Source: Thermosulfuriphilus ammonigenes | GTDB lineage: Bacteria; Desulfobacterota; Thermodesulfobacteria; Thermodesulfobacteriales; ST65 | Length of the DNA stretch: 64,000 nt | Reading direction: 5' to 3' | Assembly: GCF_011207455.1 (NCBI RefSeq) | Contig: NZ_CP048877.1 | Location: 1,046,576 to 1,110,575, forward strand | Shown: one piece after another, positions 12,602-62,369 of the stretch | How positions within the stretch are numbered: the stretch's first letter is position 1 | Layout of the letters: each line of letters opens with the position of its first letter | The notes under the pieces: model-generated | What the model was told of the DNA's origin: nothing | Database searches by the model: none | The model's input: the letters and a program-made list of their open reading frames with translations, nothing else | Program-made: the position numbers and the translations under genes

Positions 12602-13687
12602 CTATTCCTCCTCTTTTTCCTGACCGGATTTGACCATCTTTTTGATGACCCCAACCGCGGCGTGGGTGGCCACCACGGCCAAGGCCCCTCCCACCGCCAC
12701 CTTGCCGATCTTCTCGGCCTCCTTTCGAATACCGCCACCGGCCGGGATATAAACCTCTGGCAGATGTTCATAGAAGGGGGTCATGGTGTCCCAGAATCCG
12801 GGCTCGGTACACCCAATACAGCCGTGACCGGACCCTACAGGCCAAGCCCCTACGTCGCAAAAACGAATGACCGGACAGTTGGAATAAGTAACTGGCCCCT
12901 TACAGCCTACTTTGTAGAGGCAGTAGCCCTTCTGGTGTCCTGGATCTCCAAAGGCCTCCACAAAACGCCCTTCATCAAAATGGGGGCGACGAGGACAATG
13001 GTCGTGTATCTTCCGTCCATAAGCAAACTTAGGACGGCCGAGCTCGTCTGTCTCTGGTGGACGTCCAAAAGTCAGGGTATGGAGGATAGTCCCCAGAATG
13101 TTGTAAGGATTAGGCGGGCAACCAGGGATGTTAATCACCGGTTTGACCTTGATGATGTCCCGCACTCCCACGGCCCCCGTGGGGTTAGGATGGGCCGCCT
13201 GGATACCACCAAAGGAGGCGCAGGCTCCTATGGCGATCACCATCTGGGCCTTTGGGGCTACGTGGTTGAGGATCTCAAGGGCGGTACGGCCGCCAATCTT
13301 GCAATAGATACCCCCGTCCTTTTTGGAGATAGCCCCTTCCACTACACAGATAAAGCGCCCCTCGTTTTTTTTGAGCTGTTCCTCAAGAACCGTCTCCGCC
13401 TGATGTCCGGCAGCAGCCATTAAGGTCTCGTGGTAATCAAGGGAAATAAGGTCCAAAATGAGCCGGGCCACGTCAGGATGAGAGGAGCGCAACAGGCTTT
13501 CGGTACAGCCGGTACACTCCATAAAGTGAAGCCAGATCACCGGCGGTCGCTGGGGAGAAGCCGCAGCCTCGGCCACCTTACCCACCATTTCCGCCGGCAA
13601 ACCCATAGCCGCCGTGGCTATGGTGCAGGCTTTAAGAAAACTGCGTCGACTCATCTTACCCAAACGGTGAGCCAGAAAGCGTTCCAT
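12602..13687 (-). CDS. hyaA: [NiFe] uptake hydrogenase small subunit with Tat signal
   Basis: 361 residues. The SRRSFLK twin-arginine motif at 13-19 exports the folded small-large pair. Fe-S ligands are visible: ECTGCTES (proximal cluster), HDHCPRRPHF and GYCLYKVGCKGP (distal), SNCP, FC and GCIGCTEP (medial). The proximal motif is CTGCT rather than CTGCC, so the extra Cys of oxygen-tolerant group 1 enzymes is absent and ordinary oxygen sensitivity is expected. A C-terminal hydrophobic anchor (about 325-345) holds it to the membrane. First gene of the operon, with AGGAGG-like sequence upstream of the ATG. Confidence 0.97.
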   Translation of the reverse strand: MERFLAHRLGKMSRRSFLKACTIATAAMGLPAEMVGKVAEAAASPQRPPVIWLHFMECTGCTESLLRSSHPDVARLILDLISLDYHETLMAAAGHQAETVLEEQLKKNEGRFICVVEGAISKKDGGIYCKIGGRTALEILNHVAPKAQMVIAIGACASFGGIQAAHPNPTGAVGVRDIIKVKPVINIPGCPPNPYNILGTILHTLTFGRPPETDELGRPKFAYGRKIHDHCPRRPHFDEGRFVEAFGDPGHQKGYCLYKVGCKGPVTYSNCPVIRFCDVGAWPVGSGHGCIGCTEPGFWDTMTPFYEHLPEVYIPAGGGIRKEAEKIGKVAVGGALAVVATHAAVGVIKKMVKSGQEKEEE

Positions 13688-13971
13688 CCCCGCCTCCTTT
13701 GCAAAAGCGTAAAAATTATCAGAAGATATGTATTACCTTGGATCCTAAAAAGAAAATTTGGCAAAAAAAGAGATCGACAAGGGACGAGTTAAAGACCATA
13801 ATTTTTTTTAGCATTTAACAGAAAAGAAGGCAAAAATTTTTTCAAAAAATGAAACCTTTAAGGATGTTAAAGGACCAAAATGACCTCTAAACCCCTCTAA
13901 ATGACAAAAATTGTCACAAAACCCCAAAAGGCTCAATAATGGGACAAAGATTTATCAAGGAGGGCAAAAGT
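13688..13971. promoter_or_regulatory. Divergent hydrogenase control region with a TGACAA/TTGTCA palindrome
   Basis: This 284-bp AT-rich gap separates hyaABC from the maturation genes. It holds A-runs and T-runs and one clean palindrome, TGACAA-N3-TTGTCA at 13902-13916, about 55 bp upstream of the protease gene. No unambiguous -10/-35 pair was found. The palindrome could be an operator for a CRP/FNR-like or other dimeric regulator; this is inference. Confidence 0.4.
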
Positions 13972-14466
13972 ATGGATGTGTGGGGGCCTTTGGCCCTGGT
14001 AGGCCTGGGGAACATCCTTCTCGGAGATGAAGGTTTCGGGGTTCATTTTATTAGGCACCTCAAGCAGGAGTTCTGCTTCCCAGAAGGGGTAGATCTTATA
14101 GATGGTGGTTGTGCCGGCCTGGGGCTCCTTAACCTCATCCGGGGCTATAAGACCGTCATCCTCTTTGATGTCTTGTTAAAGAAAGCCCCGCCGGGGACTA
14201 TCTATGTCCTGGAGATGGACGCCCTCGAAAACCTGCCCTCATCCTCCCTGGCCTCGGCCCACCAGATAGGAGTCAAAGATGCCCTGGCCCTGGCCAGGTT
14301 CTCCAGTGTTGGTCCCGAGAAGTTCTGGGCCTATGCGGTTGTCCCCAAGGATCTTTCACCTGGAGTAGGGCTTTCGGCAGAACTCCGGGAAGCCTTCTTT
14401 CCCCTCCAGGAAAGGCTCTTTACGGATCTTAAAACATTGGGGATCTATCCCGAAAAAGGGGGGTAG
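13972..14466 (+). CDS. hyaD: Hydrogenase maturation protease (HyaD/HupD family)
   Basis: 164 residues. It cleaves the C-terminal extension of the hydrogenase large subunit after Ni insertion. Family motifs: GLGNILLGDEGFGVH with the Ni-binding Glu, a LIDGG segment with the second acidic ligand, and a SAHQIG His. An upstream in-frame ATG exists at 13939, but the ATG at 13972 is preceded at 7 bp by AAGGAGGG and gives the usual N-terminus, so I chose it. Followed after 2 bp by hypC. Confidence 0.93.
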   Translation: MDVWGPLALVGLGNILLGDEGFGVHFIRHLKQEFCFPEGVDLIDGGCAGLGLLNLIRGYKTVILFDVLLKKAPPGTIYVLEMDALENLPSSSLASAHQIGVKDALALARFSSVGPEKFWAYAVVPKDLSPGVGLSAELREAFFPLQERLFTDLKTLGIYPEKGG

Positions 14467-14468
14467 TT

Positions 14469-14693
14469 ATGTGTCTAGGGGTACCCATGAGATTGATTGA
14501 GGTAAATTATCCCCTGGGGGTAGCCGAGGCCCGAGGTGTAAAGCGGACTGTCTATCTCCAGCTTCTTCCGGAAAATGAGATCAAAGAAGGGGACTATGTC
14601 ATCGTTCATGTGGGCTTTGCTATTCAGAGGCTTTCAGCCAGTGAGGCCGAGGAAACCTGGCGCCTTCTGGAAGGCCTGCTGGAGGGTTCTTGA
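14469..14693 (+). CDS. hypC: Hydrogenase assembly chaperone HypC
   Basis: 74 residues. HypC carries the Fe(CN)2CO unit with HypD and delivers it to the large subunit. The essential N-terminal MCLGVPM with Cys2 is intact, followed by the small beta-barrel with GDYVIVHVGFAIQRL. Its TGA overlaps the hypA ATG (TGATG), which implies coupling. Confidence 0.97.
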   Translation: MCLGVPMRLIEVNYPLGVAEARGVKRTVYLQLLPENEIKEGDYVIVHVGFAIQRLSASEAEETWRLLEGLLEGS

Positions 14694-15052
14694 TGCATGA
14701 GGCATCTCTGGTGGCCGCCATGGCCGAAGAAATAAGAAGATTGGCTGTGGCAGAGGGGGCCCAAAAGGTAACCCGAATCCTGGTGCGGATCGGGGAGGCC
14801 GCAGGGGTGGAGCTGGAGGCCTTTGATTTTGCCTTCTTGGCTCTAAAGGCCCAAGATCCCCTCTTCTCCGAAGCCCATCTGGAGATAGAGACCAGACCGG
14901 TGGTTTTGGAATGCTTTTTTTGCGGCCATCGCCAAGAAGGGGAACTCGGCCGGCCCTGTGATCAATGCGGCCAGATAGGGCTCCAGCTTATCTCTGGAGA
15001 TGAGATCTACCTGGCCAGTATAGACTTAATCACGGGAGACAAAAATGTGTGA
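14693..15052 (+). CDS. hypA: Hydrogenase nickel-insertion protein HypA
   Basis: 119 residues. HypA delivers nickel to the hydrogenase large subunit together with HypB. The start is fixed by function: the N-terminal Met-His-Glu binds Ni, so the ATG at 14693 (MHEASL) is correct rather than the TTG one codon earlier. A zinc site of two pairs is visible, CFFCGH and CDQCG. It overlaps hypB by 8 bp. Confidence 0.97.
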   Translation: MHEASLVAAMAEEIRRLAVAEGAQKVTRILVRIGEAAGVELEAFDFAFLALKAQDPLFSEAHLEIETRPVVLECFFCGHRQEGELGRPCDQCGQIGLQLISGDEIYLASIDLITGDKNV

Positions 15053-15722
15053 GGATTGCGGTTGTCAGACCAAACATCTGGAGATCGAAAGGGCCATCCT
15101 CTCTACTAACGAAGCCCTGGCCCAAAAAAATCGTCAGCATTTTCGCCGTCTCGGAGCCAAGGTTATCAACCTCATCAGCGCCCCGGGCTCCGGCAAGACC
15201 TCGCTGCTTGAGGCCACGGTGGAGGCCCTGGCCCAAGAGATACCTCTGGCGATCATCGAGGGAGATCCGGAGACCGAAAAAGACGCCGAAAGACTGCGGC
15301 GCAAAGGAGTCCCGGTGGCCGCAGTAACAACAGGCGGAGCCTGCCACCTGGATGCCCGGATGATCCACCGGGCTTGTCATCAGCTTGAGCCCCATCGCCC
15401 CCGCCTCATTTTTATCGAAAATGTCGGCAACCTGGTCTGTCCCGCCGCCTTTGATCTCGGAGAAGACCTCCGGGTTATCCTGGTCTCCGTACCTGAGGGG
15501 CCGGATAAACCAGAAAAATATCCAGCGGCTTTCCTCAAGGCTCAGGCCTTTTGCATCACCAAGGCCGATCTTTTACCCTACTTTGACTTTGACCCCCAGG
15601 AGGTCATCGACTCCGCCAGGAAAATCAAGCCAGATCTAAAGGCTTTTATCCTTTCAGTAAAAAATGGCCAGGGTCTCTCTGATTGGTTCACCTTTATAAG
15701 AGAATTCGTTATCAGGGGATAG
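15045..15722 (+). CDS. hypB: Hydrogenase nickel-incorporation GTPase HypB
   Basis: 225 residues. GTPase of the SIMIBI class that drives nickel delivery. It carries the N-terminal CEDCGC metal motif, the P-loop SAPGSGKTSLL, the metal/GTPase segment GGACHLDA, and the base-recognition TKAD. There is no long His-rich stretch, so nickel storage is not its role. Last of the hyaD-hypCAB block. Confidence 0.97.
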   Translation: MCEDCGCQTKHLEIERAILSTNEALAQKNRQHFRRLGAKVINLISAPGSGKTSLLEATVEALAQEIPLAIIEGDPETEKDAERLRRKGVPVAAVTTGGACHLDARMIHRACHQLEPHRPRLIFIENVGNLVCPAAFDLGEDLRVILVSVPEGPDKPEKYPAAFLKAQAFCITKADLLPYFDFDPQEVIDSARKIKPDLKAFILSVKNGQGLSDWFTFIREFVIRG

Positions 15723-15762: not shown

Positions 15763-16140
15763 ATGATTCGAAGAAGGTTTCTGGAGATCCTGGCCCTGGG
15801 CTTACTGGCGTTCCCCACTGTCTCCTTTATTGTCTATCGCCTCCCCCGCCCCCCTCGTCTCAAAAAGGTCAAGGTTAACCTCAAGCCGGGTATGGTCTAT
15901 GTTGATGCAGAGTTTTTTTTGCTAGAGGGCCCTAACGGGCCACTGGCCCTTTTAAGAAGATGCCCTCATCTGGGCTGTCCGGTCTCTTACCAACCAGAGG
16001 TCGGTCTCTTTGTCTGCCCCTGTCACCAGAGTCGTTTCAAGCTAACTGGACGGTACGTGTCTGGTCCGGCCAAGAAGGACCTCCGCCGGCTCACTGTGGA
16101 GAAGAAAAAGGACGGCTATGTGGTGGAGATCCCGGTCTAA
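15763..16140 (+). CDS. Rieske [2Fe-2S] protein
   Basis: 125 residues. N-terminal RRRFLEILALGLLAF is a Tat-like signal/anchor, placing the cluster outside the membrane. The Rieske ligands are CPHLGC (C67, H69) and CPCHQS (C85, H88), with C72 and C87 able to form the stabilising disulfide. The start is an ATG after AAAGGGGG. With the following cytochrome b and multihaem cytochrome it should form a quinol-oxidising complex. Shorter than bc1 Rieske proteins but similar to those in minimal Rieske/cytochrome b complexes. Confidence 0.9.
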   Translation: MIRRRFLEILALGLLAFPTVSFIVYRLPRPPRLKKVKVNLKPGMVYVDAEFFLLEGPNGPLALLRRCPHLGCPVSYQPEVGLFVCPCHQSRFKLTGRYVSGPAKKDLRRLTVEKKKDGYVVEIPV

Positions 16141-16948
16141 GATAAGCCTTGGTATTGCCCAGCTTATCACGGCCAGTCTCCTTATCTCCGGGGGCTCGGG
16201 TATCCTGGTAGCCTATCACTTCTATCCAGACCACGCCTTTGTCTCCGTGGTCGGGCTGGATACGGTAATCCCCTTCGGGCGACTTATCCGGGGGGTGCAC
16301 TTTTGGTCAAGTCAGTTCTTTTTTCTTCTGCTTCTCTGGCATCTGTGGGAGTCTATCCGCAGCGGAGCCCATTTAAGACGCCGGCTCCTTTACTGGAGTG
16401 GGCTGGTCCTTCTCCTTCCGGCCGCCCTGATGGCCCTCTTTACCGGATATGTCCTCCGGGAGGATCAGACCGGCATGGCCGCCGGGGCCATCGCTGAGCA
16501 TCTGGCCCTTTCTGTGCCCCTGATCGGCGGGGTGGTAAACGCCCTCTTTTTTGATCTGGAACACTCCGGGCTAATAAGGGTCTATAGTGCCCATATCTTG
16601 ATCTTTTTCATCATTCTTTGGGGAAGTCTCTGGTACCACCTAAAGAGACGGAGATTGGAAAGCGAGGATCTTCTCCGGGCCCTTGTCCTCTCTCTGATCC
16701 CCGCCCTTATCTTAGCCGCCCCCCTGGAGATGACCTCCGGGGCCCTTCTCATTAAGGGCCCCTGGTTCTTTCTTGGAGTTCAAGAGCTTCTGCGCTATCT
16801 TCCTCCGCTGGTGGCCGGAGTTCTCTACCCGGCCGTGCCCATTGGGGCCCTTCTGGCCCTGCCCCGGGCGGAGAAACCGTCTCTTCTTACCCTCGGCCTG
16901 TGGCTGGTGAGCTATTTCATTCTCACCTTAGTGGGAGAGTTGAGGTGA
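16118..16948 (+). CDS. Cytochrome b (Rieske/cyt b complex, N-terminal b6-like)
   Basis: 276-residue membrane protein related to the N-terminal haem-binding part of cytochrome b/b6. Haem-ligand His pairs can be seen in the helices GRLIRGVHFWSSQFFFLLLLWH and VYSAHILIFF...WYHL, and the PFGR/GYVLREDQTG region resembles the Qo-side GYVLPWDQ of cytochrome b. About seven to eight hydrophobic helices. The ATG at 16118 overlaps the Rieske gene by 23 bp, so a slightly later start cannot be excluded. Predicted to oxidise quinol and pass electrons through the Rieske protein to the multihaem cytochrome. Confidence 0.88.
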   Translation: MWWRSRSKISLGIAQLITASLLISGGSGILVAYHFYPDHAFVSVVGLDTVIPFGRLIRGVHFWSSQFFFLLLLWHLWESIRSGAHLRRRLLYWSGLVLLLPAALMALFTGYVLREDQTGMAAGAIAEHLALSVPLIGGVVNALFFDLEHSGLIRVYSAHILIFFIILWGSLWYHLKRRRLESEDLLRALVLSLIPALILAAPLEMTSGALLIKGPWFFLGVQELLRYLPPLVAGVLYPAVPIGALLALPRAEKPSLLTLGLWLVSYFILTLVGELR

Positions 16949-18633
16949 AGACCTGGCTATCTCTGGCCCTTATAGTTTTAATCCTTTCGGCCACAGTCTA
17001 TGAGGTCCTGCGGCACCGGGCCGACAAAGTCCACCTTCTCCTCAGCGGCCAGGTAGATATGTGTCTTTCCTGTCACCAGGAAGAGCCGGATCAGGCCCAT
17101 CAGGCCGGAGTGGTGGGCTGTGCTGAGTGCCACCTGGGCAATCCCTTGGCTTCAGAAAAATGGCGGGCCCACCGAGGGATGGTCAAAAATCCCGGAGAGC
17201 TGGTTTGGGCGGAGAAGACCTGCGGTCGGCAGGGGTGTCATCCCAGCGATGTCCCCAACCTCAAAAAGGCCCTCATGGCCACCAATCGGGGCATCATTGC
17301 TACCCTTCGTTACTACTGGGGAGAGACCGACGACCCCCGGGAGAATCTCACCGTAGAAGACCTTCAACGGACCGGGAAGACCTCCCTGGCCCTTGATTAC
17401 TTCCGTAAGCTCTGCGGCTCCTGTCACCTTTGGGTAAAACGCGGTGAGCTCCCTTCGTTTCTGGCCGAAAAAGGCGGAGGCTGCACAGCCTGTCATAATC
17501 AGCCTCCCCCACGCTCTACCGGAAACAAAAGGGGCAAACCCCATCCCCAGATCACCAAAAAAGTTCCCCTTGAGGCCTGCGTCCGCTGTCATAATCGCAG
17601 TGGCCGCCTGGGCCTTACCTATCAGGGGATGATCGAATCTGAAGGCTACGGCGTCCCTTATGATGAAGGTCTTCCCCGTTCAGATCTTATCGATGGTCGT
17701 TCGGTAATTCGTATCCCCCCTGATGTCCACTTTAAGGCCGGGCTGGTCTGCATCGACTGCCATCTGCGGGAAGAAATCATGGGCGATGGTAAGTCTTATG
17801 CCCATTTTGAGGAGCAGGTAGAAATAACCTGCCAGATGTGCCATGGCGGAGATGGTCTAAGCCGCAAGGGACGCAAGGCCCCCAACTTTAAGAAGGGGCC
17901 AAACGGACAACCAGTTCTGGAGGGCAAACTGGATGGTCGGCTCCACCCACTGGCCCCTCCCAAGGAGATCTGTCAGGGGCGAGACCACCAAAGATTATCC
18001 TGTCAGGCCTGTCATAGCTGGTATGTCCCCCAGTGCTACGGCTGTCACGTACGCCAGGATGAGAGTCAATCCCAGCTAGACAAAGTAAACGCCAGAGAAA
18101 CCAAGGGGCTCTGGGAAGAGTTTCGTTCCTACATGCGTTATGAGAGGCCTGTCTTGGGGGTACAAGGTAACAAGATCGAGATCCTTGTCCCTGGCTGACA
18201 GGATTTTGTCTCCCTGCTGGATGAGCAGGGACGCCTGAAGAGGACTTTCAAACGCCTTACCTGGTCTTTCATGGATCCCCACTCTACCCAGAAGAAGGGA
18301 CGCAGTTGTCCCGACTGTCATCAGTCGCCCAAAACCGTAGGGCTTGGCCCGGGAAATGTCTTCTTTGAAAACGGCCGTTTGCTCTTTGCCCCAGCAGATA
18401 CCGGAGCCGATCTGGGACTTAACCATTCCCTTCAGGCCCTGGTGGATACCTCGGGACAGCCCCTTACCAACCTCTCCCGGCCCAACCTCCGACCTTTTAA
18501 TCAAGAGGAGATAAGGCGTATCCTTCGGGTGGGCCTCTGCCTTGTCTGTCATCCAGACTACAGCGATCCGGTTATGCAAAACTGGCGTCCAGACCTCACT
18601 TGTCCGGTATTTGACGAAAAAAATGGCCTCTGA
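16945..18633 (+). CDS. 12-haem cytochrome c with in-frame UGA (candidate selenocysteine or recoded Cys codon)
   Basis: Starts at a GTG overlapping the cytochrome b stop (GTGA), with an N-terminal signal anchor. Haem sites before the UGA: CLSCH, CAECH, CGRQGCH (CX4CH), CGSCH, CTACH, CVRCH, CIDCH, CQMCH, CQACH, CYGCH. The TGA at 18196-18198 is codon 418 in the context LVPG-UGA-QDF. The same frame then stays open for 435 bp to 18633 with two more haem sites (CPDCH, CLVCH), normal codon usage and no ribosome-binding site of its own. Read through, it gives about 562 residues. If UGA is a stop, the product is 417 residues and the remainder is a relic. A strong hairpin lies just after the UGA. Likely the electron acceptor of the Rieske/cytochrome b complex. 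Confidence 0.75.
18196..18231 (+). promoter_or_regulatory. UGA plus SECIS-like hairpin
   Basis: After the in-frame TGA (18196-18198) and 12 nt, TCCCTGCT (18211-18218) pairs perfectly with AGCAGGGA (18224-18231) around the loop GGATG. The loop begins 20 nt after the UGA and opens with G, matching the general bacterial SECIS layout (small G-starting loop roughly 16-37 nt downstream). No T-run follows, so it is not a terminator. Confidence 0.6.
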
Positions 18634-18644
18634 AGGAGAAAAAA

Positions 18645-19007
18645 ATGGCTTATGAAGGCCTAAAACGCTTCCTGCCCGCTGGCATTTACATGATTTTTCT
18701 GCTGGCGGTGGCCGTTATTCCCCTGGGCCCTCCAGGAGGAAGCGACAAGCTGGCCCATGCCCTCTCGTATTTTATTCTGGGTTTGCTGCTTTTCTGGTGG
18801 GCCTCATGGCGCCTAGCCCACCGCCCGGCCTATCTGGTGGCCTTGGTGGTCATAGGAATTGGGGCCGTCCACGGAGCCTTGGTTGAAATGGTTCAGAGCC
18901 AGGTGCCAGGAAGGGTAGCCGACCTAGGTGACTGGCAGGCCGACATCTTTGGTCTTCTCACCTCTCTTTTGGCCGCCCTGCCCATTTTGGGGGCCCGAAA
19001 GAGCTAA
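18645..19007 (+). CDS. VanZ-family membrane protein
   Basis: 120 residues with four hydrophobic helices and the VanZ pattern DKLAHALSYFILGLLL and GALVEMVQ...RVADLGDWQADIFGLL. VanZ-like proteins are widespread; the founding member raises teicoplanin resistance, but the role in most bacteria is unknown. It follows the cytochrome gene by 11 bp with an AAGGAG site, and its end overlaps the convergent thrC by 4 bp. Confidence 0.85.
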   Translation: MAYEGLKRFLPAGIYMIFLLAVAVIPLGPPGGSDKLAHALSYFILGLLLFWWASWRLAHRPAYLVALVVIGIGAVHGALVEMVQSQVPGRVADLGDWQADIFGLLTSLLAALPILGARKS

Positions 19008-62057: not shown

Positions 62058-62155
62058 TTAGCATCTTTTATAAGAGAAAGCGAAAGGTTATCATAGATGT
62101 TATCGATAGAATCTATTTGAAATAGCAATCAAACACCGCTAAGTATTTGTAATGA

Positions 62156-62244
62156 GGGGACGATGGTGCTGGGCACCCGGCGGGCTGCAAACCCGCTTGT
62201 TCCCGGGTTAAACCGGGAAGGAGGTTCGATTCCCCTCGTCCCCT
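62156..62244 (+). tRNA. tRNA-Sec-like tRNA-Cys (GCA anticodon), tRNA-ReC type
   Basis: 89 nt without encoded CCA. Acceptor GGGGACGA pairs with TCGTCCCC (8 bp; or 7/5 if the last pair is given to the T stem), and the base at 73 is U, the Cys identity base. The D arm is a short stem (GGTGC/GCACC) with a tiny loop, as in tRNA-Sec. Anticodon arm GCGGG-CTGCAAA-CCCGC gives GCA. The variable arm is long, TTCCCGG/CCGGGAA (7 bp). T-loop TTCGATT, with one A-C mismatch in the T stem. Ordinary tRNA-Cys is class I with a short variable loop; this is class II. Confidence 0.85.
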
Positions 62245-62369
62245 AATCTCCTGATCCCAGAACAAAACTTTTTAAATCTGGTCGGGACAAAACCACCGAT
62301 TCCGCAAAGATTTGGACTCAGCCCCTTGTCTCCTATCCGGCCATTTGAGCTGGCAAATCTATTAGGATC

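Follow-up and report, generated by a model that had tools for sequence, protein, structure and literature searches.

A 12-haem c-type cytochrome of Thermosulfuriphilus ammonigenes in which an in-frame UGA is very probably read as selenocysteine

The window analysed here, a 64-kb stretch of the Thermosulfuriphilus ammonigenes genome (contig NZ_CP048877.1), carries a multihaem cytochrome gene with an internal UGA codon, together with neighbouring genes, a hairpin close to the UGA and an unusual tRNA gene. The features, in window coordinates, are as follows:

15763–16140, forward strand: Rieske [2Fe-2S] protein, probably in the same operon as the cytochrome
16118–16948, forward strand: cytochrome b (b6/ExtP-like), probably in the same operon as the cytochrome
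16945–18633, forward strand: ExtM-related 12-haem c-type cytochrome gene, encoding a membrane-anchored protein of 562 residues, very probably with selenocysteine (Sec) at residue 418
18196–18198, forward strand: UGA very probably read as Sec, residue 418, motif LVPG-U-QD
18211–18231, forward strand: putative SECIS hairpin, 8-bp stem and 5-nt loop GGAUG, starting 12 nt 3' of the UGA
18645–19007, forward strand: VanZ-family small membrane protein, downstream of the cytochrome
62155–62245, forward strand: selC*-type tRNA-Cys, anticodon GCA, not a decoder of UGA

The cytochrome frame starts with GTG and runs from 16945 to 18633 with a single internal TGA, at 18196–18198 (codon 418). The 435 bp 3' of this codon (18199–18633) are open and contribute CxxCH motifs at residues 455 and 532, and no Shine-Dalgarno-like sequence precedes the next in-frame ATG (18271). 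Eleven CxxCH motifs and an invariant C-x4-CH at residues 93–99 give 12 haem sites in all. The sequence-only reading of this DNA had described the frame in the same terms (one TGA at codon 418, 435 open base pairs with two extra haem motifs, no ribosome-binding site) and had counted 12 haems; both statements held when the coordinates and motifs were rechecked.

The stop codon of the cytochrome b gene overlaps the GTG start of the 12-haem cytochrome, and the order Rieske, cytochrome b, cytochrome is retained at all four other Thermodesulfobacteriales loci tested. Adjacent Rieske or cytochrome b genes were found at none of the tested Sec or Cys loci outside Thermodesulfobacteriales, so the electron donor would be lineage-specific or uncertain; at the loci examined there, the neighbours are unrelated and many are housekeeping genes. 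The VanZ-family gene had no match near the cytochrome at the other loci examined. Directly 5' of the Rieske/cytochrome genes lie genes for a NiFe hydrogenase small subunit and for hydrogenase maturation (protease, hypA, hypB), at 12602–13687 on the reverse strand and 13939–15722 on the forward strand.

Using the read-through protein as a query, we searched 395 genomes of the host's phylum; many genera yielded full-length matches, and these very often contained a single internal TGA. In 121 homologues the codon aligned to 418 is TGA in 53 and TGC or TGT in 68, and nothing else (the total joins one tally of 47 TGA and 68 Cys forms to 6 UGA forms read separately). Cys also occupies this column in ExtM-type and other more distant relatives. 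Across 59 aligned sequences, with U read as C, U/C418 and Q419 are invariant and the surrounding motif P-G-U/C-Q-D is nearly so. The sequence-only reading had named a Cys or Sec column at 418 as the support to look for and had mentioned Cys at this place in some related multihaem cytochromes; the column is there, with Cys in the 68 homologues and the ExtM-type relatives.

Distinct homologous sequences with UGA at this codon number 44 and come from many families, from isolates as well as metagenome-assembled genomes (MAGs). The cultured Thermosulfurimonas dismutans (L063) is one carrier of the UGA form. A lone in-frame stop in one genome is often caused by a sequencing error, the true codon being a sense codon, or by decay of a pseudogene, but recurrence of the same codon in 44 distinct homologues shows that the UGA is due neither to chance nor to error; the possibility of an error, which the sequence-only reading had itself listed against its claim, is thereby ruled out. 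In pairs of relatives dN/dS is about as low 3' of the UGA as 5' of it (mostly 0.05–0.2), and the downstream codons thus appear to be under the same purifying selection as the upstream ones, which also speaks against decay. Taken together, we regard error or pseudogene as a vanishingly improbable account of this codon.

Mechanical ORF calling splits these genes at the UGA (one homologue, L128, appears as ORFs of 453 and 132 aa), so that annotation of sulfur-cycling thermophiles may overlook the cytochrome. Such a split corresponds to a true stop, followed either by a second protein from the ATG at 18271 or by nothing, as a programmed truncation. An in-frame ATG does lie 24 codons on, where the call divides the gene; however, it lacks a ribosome-binding site, the 24 intervening codons show conservation at the protein level, the Cys homologues form a single continuous frame, and the motif spanning codon 418 barely varies. 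A true stop therefore seems extremely improbable.

In a tree of the family the Sec label requires two changes. Sec forms make up a Thermodesulfobacteriales group and a second group of MAGs labelled Deltaproteobacteria or Thermodesulfobacteriota, and Cys is found in a large clade composed mainly of Desulfobulbales, among them cable bacteria (Electrothrix, Electronema). A lone Cys sequence inside one of the Sec groups (L041) has a degraded hairpin and possibly represents a recent Sec-to-Cys change. The tree was rooted by midpoint, which does not fix the direction of Sec/Cys change; since the ExtM-type relatives carry Cys, their sequences suggest that Cys may be the ancestral state at column 418.

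The hairpin at 18211–18231 reads TCCCTGCT-GGATG-AGCAGGGA and its stem is perfect, as the sequence-only reading had reported (8 bp, a 5-nt loop starting GG, 12 nt past the TGA). Prediction of the bSECISearch type looks for a stem-loop just 3' of the UGA, with the apical loop some 16–37 nt away and an early G in the loop; here the GGAUG loop begins after 20 nt. A 46-nt stretch containing the hairpin has a folding energy of −18.1 kcal/mol (z = −3.0), a value that 1 of 200 shuffles attained.

The same position was compared between Sec and Cys forms. The best-stem score averaged 17.1 over the 44 distinct Sec sequences and 8.4 over the 64 Cys ones (p = 5e-17, with related sequences treated as independent), and a score of at least 12 was reached by 43/44 of the former versus 4/64 of the latter. 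Against shuffles preserving both protein and codon usage, folding gave a mean z of −1.43 in Sec forms and −0.23 in Cys forms (p = 3e-8, related sequences again treated as independent); fold energy alone was no better than the shuffles (p > 0.1) in about one-third of the Sec sequences. Compensatory pairs are seen in the commonest register, with C-G, G-C and U-A at one pair, C-G and G-C at the next and U-A and C-G at another. The SECIS-like hairpin proposed from the single sequence is thus specific to UGA forms and shows covariation. A G stands within loop positions 1–2 in 34/44 Sec forms, and 10/44 best stems are without it. Register and loop vary by lineage, and as those of Thermodesulfobacteriales differ, the SECIS elements of these cytochromes look like a set of equivalent hairpins rather than one conserved sequence.

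The host genome is complete (2,287,345 bp, one contig) and encodes selA (633 bits), selB (393 bits), selD (376 bits) and a tRNA-Sec (76 bits) with anticodon UCA, so that the four sel genes whose presence the sequence-only reading had proposed to check are all found. Its selD holds an in-frame TGA, like those of Sec-containing selenophosphate synthetases, and two further multihaem cytochrome genes of the host also contain one:

C1:748881–749804 of the host genome: selD (L059), one in-frame TGA
C1:1755392–1756651 of the host genome: ExtKL-type (NF040886) multihaem cytochrome gene (L183), one in-frame TGA
242440–243597 of the host genome: ExtKL-type (NF040886) multihaem cytochrome gene (L184), one in-frame TGA

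The two ExtKL-family genes serve as a kind of internal positive control. Among other genomes with the UGA form that were tested, selA is present in 28/28 and a tRNA-Sec was detected in 26/28. Both also occur in genomes with the Cys form, so presence of the machinery alone does not discriminate between the two. Elsewhere in the window, frames interrupted by a single TGA occur in 8 other places, several at the ends of listed ORFs; these were taken for ordinary stops or antisense frames.

The tRNA gene at 62155–62245 is tRNA-Sec-like (Rfam RF01852, 53 bits). Read from its sequence, it has an 8-bp acceptor stem (GGGGACGA/TCGTCCCC), a 4-bp T stem GG(A)GG/CCCC with a bulged A, U73 and the anticodon GCA. 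It therefore has every feature that PMC7609411, summarising Mukai et al. 2017, gives for selC* tRNA-Cys: an 8/4 structure, a T stem with a bulged A, U73, and GCA or UCA as anticodon. tRNAs of this known kind have been reported in Thermodesulfobacteria, and in this host the GCA form coexists with the true UCA tRNA-Sec located elsewhere in the genome.

The sequence-only reading had taken residue 418 to be Sec or, in second place, Cys inserted by this tRNA, which it placed at 62156. Decoding as Cys has some appeal, because the tRNA is real and resembles tRNA-Sec, some selC* tRNAs elsewhere carry a UCA anticodon and have their own SelB* and CysRS* (PMC7609411), and many homologues do have Cys at 418. 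The anticodon GCA, however, reads UGC and UGU and not UGA, and on this ground we reject Cys insertion by this tRNA as highly improbable; the genome moreover has its separate UCA tRNA-Sec, and one SelB alone exceeds the family cut-off. The Sec half of the earlier proposal stands, on the Sec/Cys column, the hairpin and the sel genes, and the Cys half does not.

Recoding of the UGA is strongly supported by the comparative evidence, and we infer the Sec-insertion pathway because selA, selB, selC and selD are all present. The gene is thus very likely to encode a selenoprotein in which UGA 418 is recoded by the ordinary bacterial SelB/SECIS route, with no essential difference from that system: the same UGA, a hairpin at standard distance and the four sel genes. 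SelD would produce selenophosphate, SelA would convert Ser-tRNA-Sec to Sec-tRNA-Sec, and SelB on the hairpin would bring the latter to the ribosome at UGA 418. Judging from gene order and family, the exported, N-terminally anchored cytochrome would receive electrons from the Rieske protein and cytochrome b whose genes lie just upstream, and hand them on. We infer that the product is an anchored periplasmic electron carrier or a terminal reductase.

Structure prediction was poor with 13 sequences (pLDDT 47.4) and good with 59 (pLDDT 88.8, no haems in the model). The latter model has an N-terminal helix at residues 2–22 and places residue 418 between strands 410–416 and 420–425; no solved structure matches this haem-free model, and a sequence search of the PDB with the cytochrome gave only weak matches around haem motifs. 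As Sec418 replaces a Cys otherwise invariant in the family and its ExtM-like relatives, in the tight P-G-U-Q-D turn between predicted strands, it most likely sits at a reactive site, where its selenol may be redox-active or bind substrate, or where it may be a distal ligand to a haem. In our reading of the alignments conserved His outside the haem motifs are fewer than the haems, so some haems would need another ligand or have an open site. A more specific assignment of Sec418, either to distal (selenolate) ligation of one among the 12 haems or to catalysis in a reductase of sulfur or selenium compounds at the Rieske/cytochrome b outlet, is tentative and on balance unlikely.

The closest known system is ExtM (NCBIfam NF040943), a 12-haem c-type cytochrome of the Geobacter selenite/tellurite reduction operon. 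The present protein is homologous to it over most of its length (295.9 bits, well short of the curated equivalog cut-off of 800 bits), the Cys of ExtM-type relatives aligns with the Sec column, and the adjacent cytochrome b is ExtP-like. Unlike ExtM it has Sec instead of Cys, and only the Rieske protein and cytochrome b recall the ext operon. UGA-encoded Sec within a multihaem c-type cytochrome is shared with ExtKL (NF040886), a 5-haem protein (PMC5877670) unlike the 12-haem one here. Sec in a multihaem cytochrome is also shared with the octahaem cytochrome of the tetrathionate reductase family (TIGR04315), which is listed as a selenoprotein family (PMC13188914). Membership of either was rejected: the read-through protein matched neither model at E ≤ 0.01.

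A 2026 review inventories 119 prokaryotic selenoprotein families and subfamilies, including ExtKL, the GSU2204 family and the octahaem tetrathionate-reductase family, and the 12-haem cytochrome family is not among them (PMC13188914). Nor did we find a report of it as a selenoprotein in the open-access literature. It is therefore probably a new selenoprotein family using a known mechanism, single members of which may already be annotated in GenBank/RefSeq. Sec is rare in multihaem cytochromes. The present case adds to them an apparently new and taxonomically broad selenoprotein family. Because this family occurs naturally in Sec and Cys versions (Cys in the Desulfobulbales, cable bacteria among them), what the residue does can be tested directly.
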